Made by a program: the position numbers and the translations under genes. Below, piece after piece: positions 41,456-64,000 of a stretch of DNA of 64,000 nt. The notes under the pieces were generated by a model. That model saw only the letters and a list, made by a program, of their open reading frames with translations. It did not search any database and was not told the origin of the DNA. Positions within the stretch are counted from its first letter, which is position 1, and every line of letters starts with the position of its first letter. The DNA lies in assembly GCA_021432605.1 (NCBI GenBank), contig MU271161.1:426004-490003 (forward strand), given 5' to 3'. The DNA is from Coniochaeta sp. PMI_546. Lineage: Eukaryota; Ascomycota; Sordariomycetes; Coniochaetales; Coniochaetaceae.

Positions 41456-41848
41456 TATAACGATCTAAGATAAGGTTTAAGATTAGAAGGTAAGTTTTAT
41501 TACTTAAGATAAGTAAGTTAAGGTATAATAAATAATCTTTACTTTAGTATCGTTAAGATAAGAATCTTATTCAAATAATAACCTTAATTGAATACTTAGA
41601 TTGATTATTAAATAATCAAAAACTATTTATAATAGAGTTTAGAAAGACTCCTTCCTATATATTTGAATAAATATAATAATAATTATAATAAACAACTATT
41701 CGGAATATTAATAATAGTTATAATAGATAACTATTACGCTTATCGGTTACGTAACCCTAAGTCCCTTACCTATATAATACGATAAGCCCCGTTTATATAT
41801 TCCTTATCTATTAACGGGATATCCCTCCGTAACTATAGGTTTATAATA
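41456..41848 (-). repeat. LTR of the 392-bp family nested in the composite element
   Basis: Starts TATAACGAT and ends GTTTATAATA, the RIP-mutated form of TGTAACGAT...GTTCGTAACA. It aligns along its length with the LTRs at 45020, 51409, 61156, 63222 and 63689. The sequence just left (GAGTAATCAAAA, 41444..41455) is the region next to the 5' LTR in the other copies, so the internal part runs leftward and this is a 5' LTR on the minus strand. Confidence 0.85.
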
Positions 41849-45019: not shown

Positions 45020-45411
45020 TGTTACGAACCTATAGGTGACGGAAGGTGCCCCGCCAATAGATAAGGAACATATATACGAGACATATCGCAGTATATAGGT
45101 TAGGGACCTCGAGTCACGTGACTGATAGATAGGATCGGTATCGATCGTATTTATTACGATAGATCGGATAGACGTTTAACACGTCTATTACTATAGTCTC
45201 TACTAGTATATAGGAAAGAGTCCTTTCAAGCTCCGTTACAGATAGTTCTTAATTACCTAATGATCAATCTAAATATTCAATCGAGGTTATCATTAAGTAA
45301 AATACTTATCTTAACGATACCAAAGTAAAGATTGCTTGTTATACCTTAACTTACTTACCTTAAATAATAGAACTTACCTTCTGATCCTTAGCCCGTCTTG
45401 GGATCGTTACA
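45020..45411 (+). repeat. 5' LTR of element 1
   Basis: 392 bp, TGTTACGAACC to GATCGTTACA. It contains a 12-bp palindrome AGTCACGTGACT (45112..45123) and a TATA-like CTAGTATATAGG near 45204..45215, plausible U3 promoter parts. Confidence 0.93.
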
Positions 45412-48400: not shown

Positions 48401-50760
48401 ACTTCGTCGTCGTATACCTCGATAATATCTTAATTTATTCGGAAGACCTCGAGCAATATAAGAAATACGTCTACCTCGTCTTATAAATATTATAAGACGC
48501 AAATTTATTAATCGAACCCGAGAAGTACGAATTTTACTAATAAAAAGTAAAATTTCTCGGTTACGTTATATTACTAGGCCAGTTCGAAATGGACCTAGAT
48601 AAGCTAAAGGCTATTAAGGAATAACCTATACCAGAAACGGTTACGGGAATACGAACCTTTCTAAAGATTACCAATTTCTATCGGAAGTTTATTAAAGACT
48701 ATAGCAAGATCGTAATACCCTTTACCAATCTTATTAAGAAAGATTTAAGGTTCGAATAGACCTCGAAAGAAGAAGAGGCGTTCTAGGAACTTAAGAGGAA
48801 GATCTTAAGCTAGCTAATATTAGTTATTACGGATCCCGAGAAACCTTACGAAATAGAAACCGATACGTCGGAATTCGTATTCGGAAACCAATTGGGATAG
48901 AAAGATAAACAAGGGAAATTATACCCGATAATATTCTTCTCGAAGAAGCTAAATAGACTAAAACTCAACTATAGTATACCAGATAAGGAGTTGATAGCTA
49001 TTATTAAGGCGTTTAAGGAATAGAAATACTACCTTATAAGAACAAGATATAAGATAAAAATCTTAACGGATTATAAGAATCTTATTACGTTTATTTCTAC
49101 GAAGGAATTTAACAAACGACAAATCAGATAATATAAGTTCCTTACCGATTTCGACTTCGAAATTGTATATAAGAAAAGAAGTAAAAATGGTAAAATAGAC
49201 GTTCTTAATCGACGAAAAGATCTAAGACTAGAAAAGGAAATACGCTTGGCGAATTTCTTCAAGACTAACTAATAAGGAAACCTTAAGCTCGATATATAGG
49301 TCGGAGTAATATAGAACATAGAACCCGAAAAACAATAGGCGGAAAGGATTAAAAAGTATCGGAAAAAAGAAGTAAAGGAAGATGTTACCTTTATACTTCC
49401 GTTATACTACGGCTTACTATAGTTTAGGAACAAGGTATACGTACCTAACAAACTATAGAAGGAACTAGTAAAAGAATTCTACAAACATCTATTATATAGA
49501 TACTAAGGAGTTTATAAGACTAAAGAACGCGTACGGCGGACCTACGACTTTCTAAGACTAGATAAAATAGTTAGATAGGTAATCGGCGAATACGATAAAT
49601 ATAATAAAGCCAAATCAAGTAAATATAAACTATACGGGCTATTATAACCTATATAACTACCAGAGAAACTATAGGAAATGGTTACGATAGATTTTATCGT
49701 CAAACTACCAATATCGAAGGAACCTATAACGGGGGTCACTTACGACAATATATAAGTAGTTATAGACAAGTTCTCCAAATACGCGTACTTTATACCATAT
49801 AAAGAAACAAGTATAACGGAAGATATAGCCTACGCCTTTTTAAAGGTAATAATAAGCCAATATAGACTACTTAAATAGCTTGTTACCGATAGAGACAAAC
49901 TATTTACCTCGAAATTCTAGATAACGTTAATACGACAAATTAGAATCAAATATAAATTATTAACGTCGTTCTACTTATAGACGGATAGGTAAACAAAACG
50001 AACAAACTAGACCTTTAAACAATATCTAAGGATATATATCAATAAAAAGCAAGATAATTGGGTCAGGTAGCTATTAGTAGTACAATAGGCCTATAATAAT
50101 ATACCTAGCGAAACGCTAAACGGGTATTTACCGTTCTTTGTCAATTACGGTTATAAGCCTACTATAAAAGAAATACTAGGAGACGGACTAATACCGTTGG
50201 ATCCGGAATTACTACAAGCGAAATATACCGCGGAACAAATAAAGCTATTTTATAAGAGACTTCGCGGATATATAAAATTACTTAACTTACGAATAGTACG
50301 ATACGTAAATTAGAAAAGGTTAAAAGGACCAACCTTATAAAAGGGAGATAAAATCTACCTCGTACGACGAAATATTAAAACAAAACGACTAAACGACAAA
50401 CTAGATTGGAAAAAAATCGGACCGTTTAAGATCAAGAAGAAATTATCTGATTTGAACTATAAACTCTAGTTACTAACGAATATACGTATTTACCTAGTAT
50501 TTTATATCTCGCTTTTCGAACTAATACCTAAAAACGCGAAGTTAGCAATAGATATTAAAGTCGAATTAATATAAGAATACGAAGTGGAAAAGATCTTTAG
50601 GTATAAAAAGGAAGGAAACGTAAACTTCTACTACGTCAAATAGAAGAACTACGACGATTCGGAAAACACGTAGGAACCGGAAACTTACCTTACGAACTAT
50701 TAGTAATTACTATAGGAATTCCGTACTATAATAGTATTATTACCCTAAGAATCGAAAGGG
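45470..50760 (+). pseudogene. gag-pol of element 1, inactivated
   Basis: Remains of a Ty3/gypsy polyprotein. The longest intact gag stretch is 45944..46129 (TYTAEFKRFSTKFDLGET, NNVKDELNKTDRFKTF). A zinc-knuckle relic (FNYGKQRYFANKYR) is at ~46.32..46.36 kb; its cysteines are lost to TAC/TTT-type changes. RT: LDFKGIYNLIRI near 48.23 kb and the active site Y-L-D-N at 48415..48426, where the second catalytic Asp codon reads AAT (G to A). RNase H ~48.83..49.23 kb (LTDYKNL). Integrase 49.5..50.3 kb (DFIVKLPISKEP, YAYFIPYKET). The chromodomain 50574..50697 has both expected Trp codons as TAG. Confidence 0.9.
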
Positions 50761-50779
50761 ATAATACTACGTCGCCGTA

Positions 50780-51385
50780 GATTATATCCTAACCTGAAAT
50801 AAAATCGTTGTCAAAGGAAAAGGACGTAACGGAAGGCGGACGATTCTCGGTAACTCTCGTTACCTCGCGATCGGCTTCCTCCTTCTCAACCCGTTCCAAT
50901 TCTTCTATACTCGTTATACCTTTACGGATAACACGTATCATTTTCTCGAACTATATTTTCTTTTGTTTTCGCAAACGTTATACGCGGGCGTCTACCTTTC
51001 GTTAGGTAACTTCGGTAGCTTCTACTTTTTTTTCAAGGCGACGGAACTGATCGCCGATCCTTACGAGGTCCTCGTTAGAAGGACCAAGTACGTCGTATTT
51101 TGAGCGACCATTACGAATATATTCGGAATACCTCGAAGAATTATTAGGCGAGGCGCGATAGGTAAGACCTAGTCGCTCGTAGGAAGAATATTCGGGTATC
51201 TCGATAGAAAATTCGAAGATAGTACGTAACAAGGCGTTTTTACGGTTAGTCGATAACTTAGAGGATTTCTTTTACTTTTATATATTACGGTCAGATATGA
51301 TAACGATAAAGAAGGGGAAACCTTCGGACGTAACTTATACGGGCTATTGGTACTATTTATAAGAAATATTAGGCTTTGGGGATAA
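50780..51385 (-). pseudogene. Conserved antisense reading frame between chromodomain and 3' LTR (element 1)
   Basis: Not a known gene to me. On the minus strand one frame reads coding-like for roughly 200 codons; 76 of these are free of stops (51002..51232). Nearly all remaining stops are TAA/TAG where the ancestral codon was probably CAA/CAG. It reads PIARISYVRRFPLLYRYH, then RYSEYIRNGRSKYDV, GPSNEDLVRIGDQFRRLEKK, and a charged C-terminal part (RKGITSIEELERVEKEEADR, TENRPPSVTSFSF) suggesting a coiled coil. The sister copy (57.36..57.94 kb) has the same frame with conservative replacements and silent differences. Start codon not identifiable. Function unknown; promoter might be the 3' LTR read backwards. 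Confidence 0.5.
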
Positions 51386-51390
51386 TGGCT

Positions 51391-51406
51391 AAAGGAAGAG
51401 GGGGAT
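51391..51406 (+). other. Polypurine tract of element 1
   Basis: AAAGGAAGAGGGGGAT, immediately before the 3' LTR; this primes plus-strand DNA synthesis in LTR retrotransposons. The equivalent in element 2 lies before 57994. Confidence 0.8.
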
Positions 51407-51408
51407 AA

Positions 51409-51800
51409 TGTTACGAACCTATAGGTAACGGAAGGTACCCCGCCAATAGATAAAGAATATACATACGAGATATATCGTAGTATATAGGTTAGAAACCTCG
51501 AGTTACGTAACTGATAGATAGGATCGGTATCGATCGTATCTATTACGATAGATCGGATAGACGTCTAGTACGTCTATTACTATAGTCTCTACTAGTATAT
51601 AGGAAGGAATCCTTTTAGGCTCCGTTATAGATAGTTCTTAATTACCTAGTGATCAATCTAAGTATTCAATCGAGATTATCATTGAGTAAGATACTTATCT
51701 TAACGATACCAGAATAAAAACTACTTGTTATACCTTAACTTACTTACCCTAAGTAATAGAACTTACCTTCTGATCCTTAACCCGTCTTAGGATCGTTACA
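51409..51800 (+). repeat. 3' LTR of element 1
   Basis: 392 bp, same ends as the 5' LTR. The central CACGTG of the palindrome has become TACGTA here, a double RIP-type change. Confidence 0.93.
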
Positions 51801-51805
51801 ATATA
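51801..51805. repeat. Target-site duplication ATATA, right copy
   Basis: Exact repeat of 45015..45019. Its last two bases coincide with the first two bases of the next element's LTR. Confidence 0.75.
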
Positions 51806-52195
51806 GTATAAACCTACGGCTATAGAAGGTGCCTTACTAATTAATAAGAAACAAATATATAAGGTGTATTATATTATATAAACAAAGGACCCCGGGTTAC
51901 GTAATTAATAAGAGGAATAGTTTTATAATAGATATATTAGGATATAAGTAATAGTTACCTATCGATTATATTATTATATTTATTTAAGTATATAAGAAAG
52001 AGCTTTTCTAAACTTTATTATTAGTAGTTCTTAATCACCTTACTAATCAATTTAAATATTCAATTGAAGTTATTATTTGAATAAGATATTTATTTTAACG
52101 ATACTAAAATAAAGATTACTTATTATACCTTAACTTACTTACCTTAAATAATAAAACTTACCTTCTAATCTTAAACCTTATCTTAGATCGTTATA
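51804..52195 (+). repeat. 5' LTR of element 2
   Basis: 392 bp; followed, as in element 1, by TTTGATTACTCTTATTCG. Strongly AT-shifted. Confidence 0.85.
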
Positions 52196-52259
52196 TTTTG
52201 ATTACTCTTATTCGATAAGTTAACCTTATATTAAGTAACTAATATAATACCCGGAATCC

Positions 52260-55200
52260 CCGTACCTTAGTAAACCTTTATAACTTAAGCCTAAACGAAC
52301 GATATAACGATAATAATTATATAATTACAAACGGAAATTATTATTCTTAAAAAAAGATTTAAAGTCGATCTTATGATTAAGATTAAGGTTCCGCGTCTCG
52401 AACTTTACGATAAGAATAAAAAGAGGTTATAAGCTTTTATTATTTAGGTTTACGCGTACTTTAAAATATACGTAATATTTTTTTTAAAGAATATAAAAAA
52501 GTAATTTATATAAGAAACTTATTAAAAAGGAAAGTAATAAAATAATTCGAACCTAATCTTTAAGACTTCTTATAAAACTAATCGAATATAAAAAGATAGA
52601 AACCGGAGATCCGCGTTATATTTTCTAATATAAACCGATTATTCGATAAGTTTAAAAAAACCTTTAGGAATCCTAATACATAAAGATCGGTAGAACGATA
52701 ATTCTTATCGTTAAGATAAAAGGGTTTAATAAAAACGTATATCGGCGGAATTTAAACGAATTACGGTTAAACTCGATTTAAAATATACTTTATTCTTTTA
52801 TTTTTATAAAAGGTTATAAGATAACGTTAAAGATAAACTTAATAAAAAAGACCGATTAGATATTTTATATAAGTATATTGTACCCGTAATCAAAATTGAT
52901 AATCGATTATATAAATGAAAATTCGAAAGAAGGAAAGGAAAAGCTTTTTAAACAATAAAGAAAACCGCGAATTCTTTTAAAAAAAACGATTAATAATTAC
53001 GGGTTTTTATTTAAGATTTATAAATCTAAACGTTATTTAACGAAGTTAACTTTAGAAAAAAGGTAAATATTTTAATTATAAGAAATAAAGATATTACGTT
53101 AATAAGTATCGTTAACCTAAGAAAACCTAAAAGTTAATCCCTAAAAATAAGACTTAGGTAATAATAAAAGATAATAGATCCCGCGTTATCGCGATAATAC
53201 GTAAAAAAGAATAATATAAGGTATTTCTTAGATTATTAAAAGAAGAAATCGATTTAATAATAATATTAGGATATAATATTACGGATATAATATATTTAGT
53301 TAACTTATTAGATCGAGAATAAAACGAGATCGAAAAAGAATAAATACCTTTATATAAAATTTACGAATCAGTATATATCGACTTAGTTTATTATAATTAG
53401 ATCTCGTATAATTGGTATATTTTTTACCGTTATACTTAATATATATAAATGGATAGTTTTTATTATTAATATTACCCGGTATAATATAATTATAACTTAA
53501 CTAAATAAGATAAAAGTTTTTAACAACGACCGAATTAAAACGATAAATCGAAAACAAAAGTTAATTATAGATTATATATTTATTAGAAGATTTAATAAGA
53601 AAATCAGATTGACGAAGATATTCGGTATTTAGAATCGTAATACAAATTACGACGTAAAGAGAAAAATCGACCGATACGTTTTTAATTCGATATATCGTTT
53701 AAAAAGAATAAACGTAAAAAAGGATTGAAAAAATAAATTAAAAATAAATTCGAATAAAGGTATACGGGGATAAGTTATAAACTTTAAAATCCGGGATAAA
53801 AAAAAGGATTACGGGGAACTGTCGGAACCTCTTTTTCGAACTTAGGATCAATTAAAATATTATAGTATTTCGTTCCGAAAATTAAAGAAATAGTTAAAAA
53901 ACGATTAATATCGATTATAAAAGGATTATATCGACGTAATATAAAAGGATCTTTATATATAACCGTAAGAATTAAATATTTATAAATTACGATTAATAAA
54001 TAAGGAAGTAATATTTAAATAATAATAAATAACGGAATATAAGGAAATTATATCTCGCTAAATCTCGTTAATATATTACGATTACCTTAGAAGAAAAAAG
54101 ACGAACCCTATTGATTTAAAATTATTAATAGAAGCCTTATCGATTATAAATAAGGATTAATAGATATAGAAACCGCGCCTCTTTAGGTTATTATCTAAAG
54201 ACGTAATCAAAAGATAATATTTAATATTACGGAAATCTTATCGTACGGTATAATATTAAAGATACCTTAATTATAAACGAATAATCCCCGAGTTAATTAG
54301 AGAATAGGTTAACTTTAATAGAATACGTTAAGAAGAAAGTTAACCTTTATAAAAAATAATCCTTACGAGGAAAAACCTATATATGATTCTAAAAAAGCTT
54401 TAATAATCTATAATAGGGTTATAAAAATTCAATTAATATCGATACGAACGATTCCGAGAGAATACTATCGATATAACAAACTATTTAAGCCCGAATTTAA
54501 GATAAGATTACCTTTATATAACCGTTAGGATTACGAGATCAATCTTTAATTAGGTAAAGAGCCCGGATTATATAAAATTTACCTTTTTAACGACTTATAA
54601 CTAAAGGCGTTAAGAGAATATATTAATAAAAATCTAAAAAAAGATTATATTTGACTATTATAATTACCTATAAGATATCTTATCTTATTCGTATTTAAGA
54701 AAAACGGGAAGTTACGTCTCGTTATAAACTATCGATAGTTTAATAATATTATTATTAAAGATCGAAGATTATTACCTTTTATATCCGAATTAAAAGATCG
54801 GTTATATAAAACCTAATAGTTTATTACCTTAGATTTTAAAGGAACGTATAACCTAATTTGAATTAAAAAAGGAGATAAGTAAAAGACGGTATAACGATTT
54901 AGGTTAGGATAATACGAATACTATATTATACCTTTCGGGCTCGTTAATATATTAGTTTTATTCTAAAGGATAATTAATTATATATTTCGAAAGTATTTAA
55001 ACGATTTCGTTATCGTATACTTCGATAATATTTTAATTTATTCAAAAGATTTCGAATAATATAAGAAATACGTTTATTTCGTTTTAGAAATATTATAAGA
55101 CGCGAATTTATTAGTCGAATTCGAAAAGTATAAATTTTATTAGAAGAAAATAAGATTCTTCGGTTACGTTATATTACTAAGCTAGTTCGAAATAGATTTA

Positions 55201-57350
55201 AATAAGTTAAAAGCTATTAAAGAATAATTTATATTAGAAACGGTTACGGGAATACGAACTTTTTTAAGGATTACTAACTTCTATCGGAAGTTTATTAAGG
55301 ATTATAATAAGATCGTAATACCTTTTACCAACTTTATTAAGAAAGATCTAAAGTTCGAATAGATTTCGAAAGAAAAAGAAATGTTTTAAAAACTTAAAAA
55401 TAAGATCTTAAGTTAATTAGTATTAAATACCGCGGATCCCGAAAGACTTTACGAAATAAAAACAAATACGTCGGAATTTGTATTCGGAAGTTAGTTAAGA
55501 TAAAAGGATAAATAAAGGAGATTATACCTAATAATATTCTTTTCGAAAAATTTAAATAGATTAGAACTTAATTATAATATATTAGATAAGGAACTAATAG
55601 TTATTATTAAGGCGTTTAAGGAATAGAAATATTAACCTATAAAGGTAAGATATAAAGTAAAGGTCCTAATAAATTATAAGAACTTTATTACGTTTACTTT
55701 TACGAAAAAACTTAATAAGTGATAAATTAAATAGTATAAATTCCTTACCGATTTCGATTTCGAAATTATATATAAAAAAGGAAACGAAAATAGTAAAACG
55801 GACGTTTTTAATCGACGAGAAGATTTGAAACCGGAAAAGGAAATACGTTTAGCGAATTTCTTTAAGACTAATTAATAAGGAAACCTTGAACTTTATATAT
55901 AGATCGGAATAATATAAATTATAAAGCCCGAAGAATAATAGGTAGAAAAGATTAAGGAATATCGGAAGGAGGAAATAAGGAAAGATATTACCTTTATACT
56001 TTTATTATACTATAGCTTATTATAATTTAGGAATAAGGTATACGTATTTAATAAACTATAAAAGGAACTGGTAAAGGAATTTTATAAATATCCGTTACGA
56101 AGATATTAAAGAGTTTATAAAATTAAAAAATATATACGGCGGACTTACGACTTTCTAAAACTAGATAAAGTAGTTAGATAGGTCGTCGGCGAATACGATA
56201 AATATAATAAAGCTAAGTTAAATAGATATAAGCCGTACGGGTTATTATAACCGATATAATTATTAGAAAAACTATAAGAAATGGTTACAATAGATTTTAT
56301 CGTCAAACTATTAATATTAAAAAAACTTATAACCGGAATTATTTACGATAATATATAAGTAGTTATAAACAAATTTTCTAAATACGCGTATTTTATACCG
56401 TATAAGGAAACGAGTACGGCAGAAGATATAGCCTACGCCTTTTTAAAAGTAGTAATAAGCTAATATAGACTACCTAAATAATTTATTACCGATAAAGATA
56501 AACTATTTACTTTAAAATTTTAGATAACGTTAATACGATAAATCGGAATCAAATATAAGTTATCGATATCGTTCTATTTATAAACAGACGGATAAATAAA
56601 ACGAACAAACTAAACCCTTGAATAATATTTACGGATATATATTAATAAGAAATAGGACGATTAGGTTAAGTAGCTATTAGTAATATAATAGGCTTATAAT
56701 AATATACCTAGCGAAATATTAAACGGGAATTTACCGTTCCTTATTAATTACGGGTACGAGTATATTATAAAAGAGATATTAGGAAACGGACTAACGTTAT
56801 TAAATCCGGAATTATTAAAAGTAAGATATATTACGGAATAAATAAAACTATTTTATAAGAGATTTCGCGGATATATAAAGCTATTTAACTTACGGATAAC
56901 GTAATATATAAACCGGAAAAGGTTAAAAGGATTAACTTTATAAGAAGGAGATAAAGTTTATTTCGTACGACGAAATATTAAAACAAAACGACTAAACGAT
57001 AAATTAGATTAGAAAAAGATCGGACTTTTTAAGATTAAGAAAAAATTATCTAAATTAAATTATGAATTCTAATTACTAACAAATATATATATTTACCTAG
57101 TATTTTATATCTCGTTTTTCGAACTAATATTTAAAAACGTAAAGTTAATAATAAATATTAAAGTTGAATTAATATAAGAATACGAAATAGAAAAGATCTT
57201 TAGGTATAAAAATAAATAAAGAATAGATTTCTATTACGTCAAATAAAAGAATTACGACGATTCGGAAAATATATAAGAACCGGAAGTTTATTTTACGAAC
57301 TATTAATAATTATTACGGGAATTTCGTTCTATAATAATATTATTATTTTA
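52260..57350 (+). pseudogene. gag-pol of element 2, inactivated
   Basis: Same domain series as element 1 with many more stops. RT active site (Y-F-D-N-I) is near 55015..55030, RNase H near 55.4..55.8 kb, integrase 56.0..56.9 kb and the chromodomain relic near 57.18..57.30 kb (KNYDDSEN followed by a stop where Trp-containing sequence is expected). Confidence 0.8.
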
Positions 57351-57359
57351 AAGGTCGAA

Positions 57360-57940
57360 AAAGATAATATTACGTTACCGTAAATTATATTTTAGCTTAA
57401 AATAAAATCGTTATCGAAAAAAAAGGACGTAACGGAAGACGGACGGTTTTCGGTAACTTTTAATACCTTTCGATCGGTTTCTTTTTTCTCGACCCGTTTT
57501 AATTTTTTTACGTTCGTTATATTTTTACGGATAATACGTATTATTTTTTCAAACTATATTTTTTTCTAGATATAAAGACGTTAAACTTTAGTTTCGGCTT
57601 ATTTAACTTCTTTTTCTAATCTACGGAATTATTCTCCGATTCTTATAAACTCCTCGTTAAAAAGACCTTAGACGTTATACCGCAAACGACCCGAACGAAC
57701 GTATTCCGTATATCGGGAAAAGTCCTTTTCGGAAACTTAATAAGAAACGAGACCGCGTTTTTCGTAATTCGAATACGAAAATATTTCGATAACGTTAGAA
57801 AGGATAGTTATTAATAAAACGATACGGCGGTCGTTCGAAGATTTGGAAGATTTCTTTTATTTCTATATATTACGGTTAGATATAATAACGATAAAAAAGG
57901 GAAAACCTTCGGACGTAATTTATATAGGCTATTAGTATTA
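57360..57940 (-). pseudogene. Conserved antisense reading frame, element 2 copy
   Basis: Counterpart of the antisense frame in element 1. Minus-strand reading gives PIAYINYVRRFSLFYRYY, RYTEYVRSGRLRYNV, EEFIRIGE, FRRLEKEVK, and RKNITNVKKLKRVEKKETDR with TENRPSSVTSFF. At one position it keeps CAA (in FQIF) where element 1 has TAA, supporting Gln as the ancestral residue. Stops are TAA/TAG and mostly shared with element 1. Confidence 0.5.
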
Positions 57941-57993
57941 CTTATAAGAAGTATTAGGCCTTAAAGATAATAGCTAAAGGAGGAGGAGGATAG

Positions 57994-58386
57994 TATTATA
58001 AACTTATAAATAACGGAAAGCGCCCCGTTAATAGATAAAGGAATATATATACGAGGCTTATCGTATTATATAGGTAAGGAACCCCGAGTTATATAACTAA
58101 TCGTAACGATCGTAATAATCAAAAGGTATTACGGTAAGTATAATTATAACTACCGTTATAATTATTATAATCTCTATTAGTATATAAAGAAGAGTCCTTT
58201 TAGATTCCGGTATAAATAGTTCTTAATTACCTAGTAATCAATCTAAGTATTCAATTAAGGTTATTATTTGAGTAAGATACTTATCTTAACGATACTAAAG
58301 TAAAGATTATTTGTTATACCTTAACTTACTTACCTTAAGTAATAAAACCTATCTTCTAATCTTAAACCCTATCTTAAATCGTTATA
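57994..58386 (+). repeat. 3' LTR of element 2
   Basis: About 393 bp, preceded by the purine-rich AAAGGAGGAGGAGGATAG. Ends AAATCGTTATA. Confidence 0.85.
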
Positions 58387-61155
58387 TTAATAGGTATTTA
58401 TAATAATATAAAGAAAATATCTTATATATTCGTAAAAAATATAATAATAAAGGTAAAGAGGCGGGTAGTTAGCGAACCGGCGTCGGTATCTAACCGGAAC
58501 GGGAAAACTAATATCTTTAAGAATATAAAAGGAAAAGTAAAAAAGGAAAAAAGGGTTATTTAAGTCGTAAGATTTATTCCCCGTCGTCTTATAATAAAGG
58601 ATTCGGTATAAACCAATTTAGTAAACTAGGTTTTATAAGGTATTATCGATAGAAAACGACGATATTAAAGTCGTACTTTTAGAAGTTTTCGGCTAACTCT
58701 TAGCTTAATTTATATAAATACGGCTATTTAACCTTATATTATAATTCTTTCCTCTTATTAATTCGTTTGAAACGAAAATTTAATATCGTTTTGAAAAACT
58801 ATTCCGTTTCCCTATTATTAACCGCGACGGCGCCGTTTATTTAACGGTTATATTCCTCGTTAATAATATCTTACCCCGGGTATTTTACGGCGTTTTACCG
58901 GATAAGGGATACGTAGAAAATTAAGAATAAACGGTATTCCGGTAATAATTATACGGCGACCGTTTTAAGGTAAACTTTCGTAATAAAAAAAGGGCTAATA
59001 AATTTAACGTCGAGTTTTTTTACCGGTCGAATTATCCGTAAGTTTTTTATATTAACCTAAACGAGTTTGCCGATATAAAAGGTCCCCGCGTCTTCTTTAT
59101 AACGGTTTATGAAATAAGTTTATCGGGTTTAAATTTCTATTATAAAAGACCTTATTTTTTCCGTAATACGGCTAATACGGTCCGTTATTATAAAGGCGTC
59201 GAAATACTTTTATTTTTATACCGTTATAATCGCGGCTTTAATTTAAAAAACTAGTTTAATATTTATTCGGGGATATTATCCGTAGTTTACGAAAAACGGA
59301 AAGATTTCCGTAATCTCGAAAATATAGTTATTAAAAGAGAATTCTATTATAAATAACTAATCGACCTAATCGTTTTAATAAAAGCCGTAAAAGGCGTATA
59401 AATATTATTTTATAATTATATTAAATATTTCCGTTTAGCCGTCGTTTTCCGGATAAAACGCCGTCGATACGTATAAAGTAATACCGAATAGCCGATTTAA
59501 TTCTTTTTAAAAGTCGGAAACAAACTATATACCTTTATTTAAAACGATAATAAAAAGCGTCCCGTATAACCGGTATATTCCCGATACAAACGTAATTAAA
59601 AAGGTATTAACGGTTAAATCGGGGACAGGGAAGAAATACTATATCTTAATAAGCTTATCGACAATAACGATAATATACCGGTATATAATACCGGACCTTA
59701 TATAAGGTAAGAATAGGCCGACGTAATTTACCGAGATATTGTTCTAAAATTTATATAAGACCGGGAATAGTTAGAAAAATCTTTACGGTCGGATACGGGA
59801 CGTCTTCGTCCGTTTATAAAGGTTATATCTTTAAACAAAAGTAATAATATCCCGGGATAATTTAGGCTAATAATACGTTTTACTTAATAAGTTATAAGTT
59901 TTATAGTTCTTAAGGTAACCGCCTAGCGTTAACTTATATATATACTATAAAATACTTAAAGGTAAATATCATTTTACGGTAAAATATAAAGCTTACTTTT
60001 AACGAAAACCCGTCTTTATATTACGATATAATCCGTTTTTACGATACCGAATTTCCGCGAAACCGATCGTAAAAACTTACCGTTTATTATAACTAGTTCG
60101 GTAAATATATCGTAAAATAAAGGCGAATCGGTATATATTTTATCGATAAGCTAATCGATCGGTTATAATATATCGAAAGAATAGAATTAAATATACCGAA
60201 TATAAATTAGTAATTCCGTAAATAATATCGTTACGGACCCGACGATATATAAGTACCGAAACTATACCGTAATATCGTCGGGTTAAAGTATTTCAGTTCC
60301 TTTTATCGGAAATTAATAGTCTAATAATAAAAACGTACGGATACGGTAACCAATACGGTCGTCCGTTACGTTTATAAAATCGGTTAACTTATCCTTTAAT
60401 AATCGGGAAAAGGCGTCGGGGATAAACGTTATCTTTTTTAAACGGTAAATAATTTAGAAACGGAAATCGTTAAAGAATTTAAATTAACGGATTTACCGTT
60501 AATTAAAAAACTTCGTTATAATAAAATATTAGAGATTTTTATAATCGGTTAAGACTTTAATAAATTCTTTCGTCTTTTAGAATTCTAGTTATTATTTTTC
60601 AAATACTTTAACGATAATTAATAATTCTTTATCGTATATTTTATAATTATATTCCGCCGAAAAGTATTTAGACGAATAAAATACGACGGGTTTCGTAAAG
60701 CCGTCGGTACCGATTTAAGATAAAACGCCGCCTAACGCCTAGTCCGAAACGTCGATTTCTAAGATAATCTTAAATCGTAAATCGTAAAAAGGTAAGATTA
60801 ATACGGTAATAAAAATAGTTTTTAAGTTATTAAAAGCTTATTTCGCCTCCGATAATATCTCGCCCGGTTACTTTTATATATCGAGGAATACGGTAAATAG
60901 AATTATAATTTTCGAGAAACCTTTAATAAACCGACGGTAAAAGTTAATAAAACCGAAAAAACGTTAAAGTTATTTCACCGAATCGGGATATTCTTAATTC
61001 GTAATCGTAATAACTTTATTTAAGTCTATATAGATACCGGTTATCGATATAATTAAGCCGAGGTATTTTATTTTTATAACGTTAAACTCGTACTTTTAAA
61101 TATTAATTATTAAGCCTATTATTCGGAACCGTTAAAATACTTCCCGGACGTAAAT
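58387..61155 (-). mobile_element. Fragment of a second gypsy family (RT end, RNase H, integrase)
   Basis: Minus-strand remains of a different Ty3/gypsy element with no LTR seen. From 61155 leftward: the end of RT (YVREVF, KYEFNVIKIKYLG), RNase H near 60.5..60.78 kb (ALGGVLS, KPVVFYSSKYFSAEYNYKIY, VLTDYKNL), and integrase near 59.6..59.8 kb (VNYVGLFLPYIRSGIIYRY, IVIVDKL). The right end is cut inside RT exactly where the LTR of element 3 begins. RIP stops throughout. Confidence 0.75.
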
Positions 61156-61547
61156 ATAACGATTTAAGATAAGGGTTAAGATTAGAAGGTAAGTTCTATT
61201 ACTTAAGGTAAGTAAGTTAAGGTATAATAAGTAATCTTTACTTTGGTATCGTTAAGATAAGTATCTTATTCAAATAATAACCTTAATTGAATATTTAGAT
61301 TGATTATTAGGTAATTAAGAACTATTTATAACGGAGTTTAAAAGGACTCTTTCTTATATACTAGTAAAGATTATAATGATAATTGTAATAGATAGCTATT
61401 CGAAATATTAATAATAACTATAATAGATAGCTATTATATTTATCGGTTACGTAACCCCGGGTCCCTTATTTATATAGTACGATAAGCTTCGCTTATATAT
61501 TCCTTATCTATTAACGGGGTTCTTTCCGTAACCGTAAGTCTATAACA
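61156..61547 (-). repeat. 3' LTR of element 3
   Basis: 392 bp, TATAACGAT to TCTATAACA; no PBS-side sequence to its left, so it is the outer left end of the element. Confidence 0.85.
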
Positions 61548-63221: not shown

Positions 63222-63617
63222 TATAACGATCTAAGATAAGGTCTAAGATTAGAAGGTAAGTTCTATTACTTAAAGTAAGTAAGTTAAGGTATAATAAATA
63301 ATCTTTACTTAAGTATCGTTAAGATAAATATCTTACTTAAAAGATAACTTTAATTAAATATTTAGATTAATTACTAGGGTAATTAAGAACTATTTATAAT
63401 AAAGTTTAAAGGAACTCTTCCTTATATATTTAAACGAAATATAATAATATAGTCGATAAGAAACTATCGCTTATATCCTAATATATCTAATATGAAATTA
63501 TCTTTGTTATTAATCACGTAACCTAAGGTCCCTAGTTTATATAATACGATACGTCTTATATATCTGTTCCTTATCGATTGGCGGGGTACCCCTTTTGTAA
63601 CCATAGGTTTTATAACA
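63222..63617 (-). repeat. 5' LTR of element 3
   Basis: About 396 bp, TATAACGAT to TTTATAACA. It contains short stretches (TGGCGGGGTACC) less mutated than the left LTR. Confidence 0.85.
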
Positions 63618-63688: not shown

Positions 63689-64000
63689 TGTAACGATCCC
63701 AAGACGGGCTAAGGATCAGAAGGTGAGTTCTGTTACTTAGGGTAAGTAAGTTAAGGTGTAACAAGCAGTCTTCACTCTGGTATCGTTAAGACAAGTGTCT
63801 TACTCAAAAGATAACCTCAATTGAATACTTAGATTGATCACTGGGTGATCAAGAACTATCTGTAGCGGAGTCTAGAGAGACTCCTTCCTATATACTTGTA
63901 GAGACTGTGGTGATATGGTCGATAGGAAACTATCACCCATATCCTGATATGCCTGCTATGAAACTATTCCTTCTATCAGTCACGTGACCCGGGGTCCCTG
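63689..64000 (-). repeat. Nearly unmutated LTR of the 392-bp family, cut by the window end
   Basis: Starts TGTAACGATCCCAAGACGGG, and 312 of about 392 bases lie inside the window. Unlike every other copy here it keeps many CA and TG dinucleotides and normal GC. The bases to its left (63618..63688) do not match the internal region, so this is the left (3') LTR of a minus-strand element continuing to the right, or a solo LTR. Confidence 0.85.

Follow-up and report, generated by a model that had tools for sequence, protein, structure and literature searches.

In a 64,000-nucleotide stretch of Coniochaeta sp. PMI_546 (contig MU271161.1; the window, whose numbering is used throughout), we analysed an antisense gene that lies between pol and the 3' long terminal repeat (LTR) of a Ty3/gypsy retrotransposon, element 1. 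As read from the sequence, this element has been damaged by repeat-induced point mutation (RIP), and its pol ends in a chromodomain-like stretch. We found that nearly identical elements of this genome carry five types of the gene's main part (the module, types A-E), and that the module type agrees with the type of the U3 region in the LTR. We also found that the antisense frame was a protein-coding gene under past selection.

An initial annotation of this DNA had described a conserved minus-strand frame at 50780..51385 and quoted peptides from it for element 1 and its neighbour, element 2. The frame and both peptides are present in the two elements; the range was shifted, the actual frame running from 51298 to 50636, with 51299-51385 outside it. 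The start-codon position, 51298, lies ~110 nt inward of the 3' LTR and reads ATA in element 1 (of 45 copies, 42 have ATA there and 3 have ATG), and the stop is TGA at 50638-50636, kept in all 13 copies translated to that point. The pol stop of element 1 is at 50800-50802; codons 1-166 are antisense only, and codons 167-220 share DNA with the end of pol. An intron at the frame start was considered and rejected: no good donor was seen by eye, and relatives begin MSxR at that same point.

Coding constraint was assessed from phase and from substitutions. Over codons 1-169, no alignment column is out of phase, and 29 of 29 aligned copies share one phase (copies L023 and L024 were left out). In the alignment, the frame of L023 is split by several hundred inserted bases that resemble a piece of LTR. 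Among the 45 copies with both flanks, the module is 355, 373 or 379 nt long, lengths whose differences are all multiples of 3. Selection was measured as the ratio of nonsynonymous to synonymous divergence (dN/dS) from transversions only, because RIP makes transitions only and cannot distort such a ratio. In all six subfamily pairs of types A-D, the antisense frame had the lowest ratio of the six frames (0.38, 0.54, 0.55, 0.61, 0.52 and 0.33, versus 0.55-1.07 for the next-best frame). The ratios are thus not near 1, none of the sense frames accounts better for the conservation, and together with the shared phase, the relatives and the predicted helix described below they uphold the proposal of the initial annotation that an antisense coiled-coil protein was once under selection. 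The in-frame stops had been attributed to former CAA and CAG codons; this holds in part, since some of them face Trp, and not Gln only, in sister copies. All 102 match rows in this genome of P0008, an intact relative, contain TAG and/or TAA and none contains TGA, the pattern expected if RIP made the stops; no intact copy was found among these rows.

The likely make-up of the protein emerges from comparison with its relatives. A first search returned one relative of 73 amino acids at 80% identity. A search with a profile of five frames gave 162 proteins at E <=1 among 4250 candidates, of which 120 were listed, many of them 199-237 amino acids long; more than 100 relatives were found in ascomycetes, many intact. 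The named sources are Colletotrichum, Pyricularia, Hirsutella, Cordyceps, Fusarium, Beauveria, Metarhizium, Gaeumannomyces, Cytospora and Coniochaeta, most of them Sordariomycetes, the class in which the placement of Coniochaeta was checked; the weakest listed row of the last protein search is from Thermoascus, a eurotiomycete. Many relatives begin with MSDR or similar where the frame begins, and the intact ones, of ~200 amino acids, have six cysteines followed by a coiled coil and end in an acidic tail. A search of viral contigs and genome contigs with profile A2 confirmed no relative. SENTWEP, from the chromodomain stretch of the window's pol, is possible opposite the tail codons, in the same register, in 6 of 97 relatives versus 1 of 2000 random tails; on this sequence evidence, some relatives elsewhere are antisense too.

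At the six cysteine sites of the 45 copies, 256 of 270 cells are Tyr and 14 are Cys, and the six-cysteine pattern is present in 89 of 121 relative proteins. The tyrosines in the peptides quoted by the initial annotation are therefore not original: the sites are mostly Cys in relatives, which identifies the residues, as far as sequence comparison goes, as RIP-altered cysteines of a zinc-cluster-like domain. RIP can make a cysteine-rich domain look tyrosine-rich. A coiled coil after the cluster is common, but not universal, in the Zn(II)2Cys6 family; here a 44-residue helix follows a confident cysteine region in both of two structure models (predicted at residues 77-120 of P0008 and 96-139 of P0020). 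The spacing in the window's type A, 2-6-9-2-7 (Cys or Tyr positions), fits inside the Zn(II)2Cys6 pattern CX2CX6CX5-12CX2CX6-8C, as given in PMC5542705. In the 89 relatives with the pattern, the residues between cysteines 2 and 3 number 6 in 17, 7 in 70 and 8 in 2. The curated cut-off of Pfam Zn_clus was not reached: 12 of 71 relatives match at E <=1 (best E 0.03), and scores among the matches listed are 10-14.9 bits versus a cut-off of 21. The fold search with the first model gave weak matches to the Leu3 and HAP1 zinc clusters; with the second, the Leu3 match was not repeated. Searches of Pfam with the broken frames and of PDB by sequence returned nothing informative; a PDB match to 1zhc (E 0.007) was set aside because the alignment covers the helix only. 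No bZIP family was among the Pfam families listed, one list giving 25 of 115 families.

The element types were compared in gag, late pol, the module and the LTR, and in reverse transcriptase by identity only (88-92%, the window's own copy excepted). In the pol segment adjoining the gene, 38 of 40 copies of types A-D, element 1 itself included, lie within 0-4 transversions of element 1 over 961-1000 sites; L012 (type A, 85/986) and element 2 (type B, 11/998) do not, and the single type E copy has 13/962. This count leaves out two L013 copies, L029 and L052, which have too little pol in the locus. An apparent pol divergence of 0.02-0.10 in a type C group of five copies was treated as an artefact of L029, with only 184 comparable sites; the other four have 0-4 in ~1000. 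In gag, compared over 1025-1100 sites with one copy of each type A-E, 1-6 transversions were counted. Representatives of the five types were also compared with each other: transversions number 51-104 in 329-356 sites of the module (14-30%), 0-1 in 114 for the adjacent stretch 51296-51410, 11-28 in 107-109 for the U3 stretch 51481-51590, and 0-1 in 200 for R/U5. The pol end of type E also differs (13-14/365). Apart from the module, no such island of divergence was found other than that in U3, just upstream of a TATA-like box.

These figures do not agree with faster evolution in place: in codons 1-108, synonymous transversion divergence is 0.32-0.50, whereas gag and pol are near zero. When Tyr and Cys are scored as equal, the closest relatives of the type B, C and D modules are P0008 (91-92% identity), P0005 (80-82%) and P0007 (72%), respectively, and these modules are nearer to those relatives than to any other type in this genome; for types A and E, the nearest relatives (0.61-0.69 and 0.64) are little closer than the other types here. 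Some of the modules, so compared, predate this genome's elements. It should be noted that matches at G000:C15:636164-636778, C6:2202597-2203211 and C17:162001-162615, which are full-length with few stops and 48-53% identical to P0008, may represent further module types.

The same combination of a variable module and a conserved remainder (C-part) is found in other fungi. Among 3258 pairs drawn from 84 sufficiently long relatives (the rest of the 120 were dropped), 22 have a C-part identity of >=85% with a module identity of <=65%, and none has the reverse. These numbers replace an earlier count of 42 versus 5 in 6983 pairs, which was inflated by truncated proteins and gaps. For example, P0043 and P0051 of Cordyceps javanica, one of the 22 pairs, are 52% identical in the module and 97% in the C-part. 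The 18 Pyricularia proteins form six module clusters (55-75% between clusters) with one C-part (81-94%), and P0080 of P. grisea groups with P. oryzae proteins in the module clustering. Likewise, the metagenome proteins P0005 and P0008 share 82% in the C-part and only 46% in the module; by sequence they are counterparts of types C and B over one other backbone. In the module, P0077 of Coniochaeta and P0008 share 92% identity.

Module type and U3 type agree in all 43 copies compared (12 A, 19 B, 10 C, 1 D and 1 E), that is, in the copies out of 45 with a usable U3 (L018 and L056 were dropped), typed by module length with D and E separated by hand. For each of the 41 copies of types A, B and C, U3 is nearer to every copy of the same type than to any copy of another type; types D and E, with one copy each, stand apart in module and U3 alike. 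At the copy level, module and U3 distances have a correlation of 0.95. L012 has an A module (5/373) and an A U3 (2/84, variable part) despite its diverged pol, and element 2, with its slightly diverged pol, has a B module and a B U3 in its 3' LTR. The U3 of type A contains two inverted repeats, and the half-sites of such repeats differ by type. Compared to shuffled sequences, the two best inverted repeats are significant in types A, B, C and E (p <=0.02 in seven copies, p uncorrected) and do not exceed shuffles in type D (p 0.16). A repeated 8-mer reaches significance in E, in both B copies and in one A copy out of two; it does not in C or D, and control stretches gave 0 of 45.

Our preferred reading, to which we give an even chance, is that the antisense gene encodes a self-made DNA-binding regulator with matched promoter sites in the element's own LTR. 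The product would be a small protein with a putative zinc-binding cluster, an acidic tail and a coiled coil through which it dimerises; its gene is probably transcribed leftward, starting in the 3' LTR. As a dimer, the protein would most likely bind the inverted repeats that directly precede the TATA-like box in U3 of its own LTRs, and would set the transcription of the element; activation is favoured because the tail is acidic, and repression fits as well. Matched module and U3 types would be exchanged between nearly identical elements, which could let a new type evade cross-control by the copies already resident. More tentatively, we suggest an immunity-like specificity system, in which the zinc-cluster dimer and the U3 palindromes would form swappable matched cassettes, that is, regulatory types kept across species on shared gag and pol, comparable to phages with different repressor and operator types.

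Several observations weigh against the preferred reading. The agreement in 43 copies rests on only five lineages; the correlation between module and U3 at the type level (r 0.565) is matched by 10 of 120 permutations and is not significant; and the zinc-cluster scores are weak. In addition, module and U3 adjoin in the window, which is the main alternative explanation for their joint travel. These points favour a genuine antisense protein that serves the life cycle in some other way (in nuclear entry, in chromatin or integration targeting, or as a nucleic-acid chaperone), module and U3 moving together as neighbours. We consider this possible but somewhat doubtful: the near identity of 51296-51410 between types makes a single block from a divergent donor unlikely, unless constraint there is extreme, as it may be, and the inverted repeats of U3 are type-specific. 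An action of the protein on the host, such as countering silencing, with module diversity arising from an arms race and U3 diversity from independent promoter turnover, would suit the strong module diversity in several fungi, but is unlikely given that module dN/dS is 0.31-0.61 and not >1, that modules are shared with relatives elsewhere, and that module and U3 types agree. Regulation by antisense RNA at loci of this kind is a topic of PMC7264820, but a role of the transcript alone, through silencing or interference, is very improbable in view of the constraint at the protein level and the intact relatives. Finally, conservation on codons 167-220 could stem from pol, but the absence of any gene, with conservation due to the sense strand or chance, is hardly credible, being already refuted by dN/dS and homologous proteins, with codons 1-166 beyond the pol stop and no sense frame of lower transversion dN/dS.

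Features of elements 1 and 2 in the window
Feature	Position	Strand	Note
Type-specific module, first divergence island	50931..51290	-	from comparison of element types
U3 stretch of 3' LTR, second divergence island	51481..51590	+	same type as module
Antisense frame, element 1	50636..51298	-	220 codons + stop; in-frame TAA/TAG break this copy
Zinc-cluster-like segment, codons 37-68	51095..51190	-	six Cys positions, all Tyr in element 1
Predicted long helix (coiled coil), ~codons 74-120	50939..51079	-	aligned with P0008 and P0020 helices
C-terminal tail, ~codons 150-220	50638..50851	-	acidic in relatives; codons 167-220 on pol end
Inverted repeat 1, type A, U3	51529..51553	.	from sequence
Inverted repeat 2, type A, U3	51557..51577	.	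directly before TATA-like box 51596-51601
5' LTR of element 1, type A U3	45020..45411	+	392 nt
3' LTR of element 1, type A U3	51409..51800	+	392 nt
Antisense frame in element 2, type B module	57239..57883	-	counterpart of element 1 frame

Element 2 (51803-58388) has a type C U3 in its 5' LTR and type B in its 3' LTR and module, and its gag is an outlier (0.17-0.18 transversions versus other copies); from its sequence, it looks composite. Minus-strand LTRs at 41458-41656, 61157-61353, 63224-63399 and 63689-63889 come closest in U3 to types E, E, C and C, respectively, so that several types occur inside one 64-kb stretch.

The initial annotation knew of no such gene in fungal chromoviruses. Its case for selection on an antisense coiled-coil protein stands, but the supposed lack of a known counterpart does not: Boty-like elements of Botrytis cinerea carry brtn, credited to Zhao et al. 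2011 (PMC7264820, PMC8365987, PMC4227169), an antisense gene in the same place, between a chromodomain pol and the 3' LTR of a fungal Ty3/gypsy element. An antisense gene at this place in fungal elements is thus not new. The window frame shares this position; the passages on brtn consulted in those papers mention neither module types nor matched U3, and no Botrytis protein was among the matches listed in two protein searches. A Monilinia transcript resembling BRTN is described in PMC5987419. In plants, gene23 of Grande, RIRE2 and TRP28 of Retand occupy the same place and strand; the Grande product is a nuclear protein, and Retand has antisense open reading frames with predicted DNA binding (PMC11963269). 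Unlike the window gene, these belong to non-fungal elements and have other domains (TRP28, Smc). The role of antisense genes of LTR retrotransposons is described as open for plants in PMC7264820, where Boty is mentioned.

Leu3, HAP1 and other Zn(II)2Cys6 factors resemble the predicted protein in near-equal cysteine spacing followed by a coiled coil, and in the weak fold matches. They differ in that cysteines 2 and 3 are separated by 7 residues, in place of 6, in most relatives, that the Pfam score is weak, and that the window gene lies antisense on an element. HBZ of human T-cell leukemia virus (HTLV), a bZIP protein, is likewise an antisense gene of a retroelement, its antisense promoter being placed in the 3' LTR, but it belongs to a vertebrate retrovirus and has no cysteine cluster. 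Tas of foamy viruses, a sense gene, has an unrelated domain as far as known, and LTR binding is only proposed for the window protein. The likeness is to the proposed mode, that of a protein encoded by the very element whose LTR it binds and activates (PMC4929722).

In the literature searched (titles and beginnings of abstracts, subscription papers being mostly outside), there was no zinc-cluster antisense gene and no module/U3 exchange in fungal elements. What is new is the presence of five module types on nearly identical elements, with U3 types in agreement. The gene occurs widely among ascomycetes; its make-up is recognisable, and it comes with a candidate target, the element's own U3, in at least five natural types, which makes a direct binding test possible. 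If the matching of types is borne out, retrotransposons would fall into specificity groups like those of phage immunity regions, and this would change the view of their copy number, coexistence and recombination.
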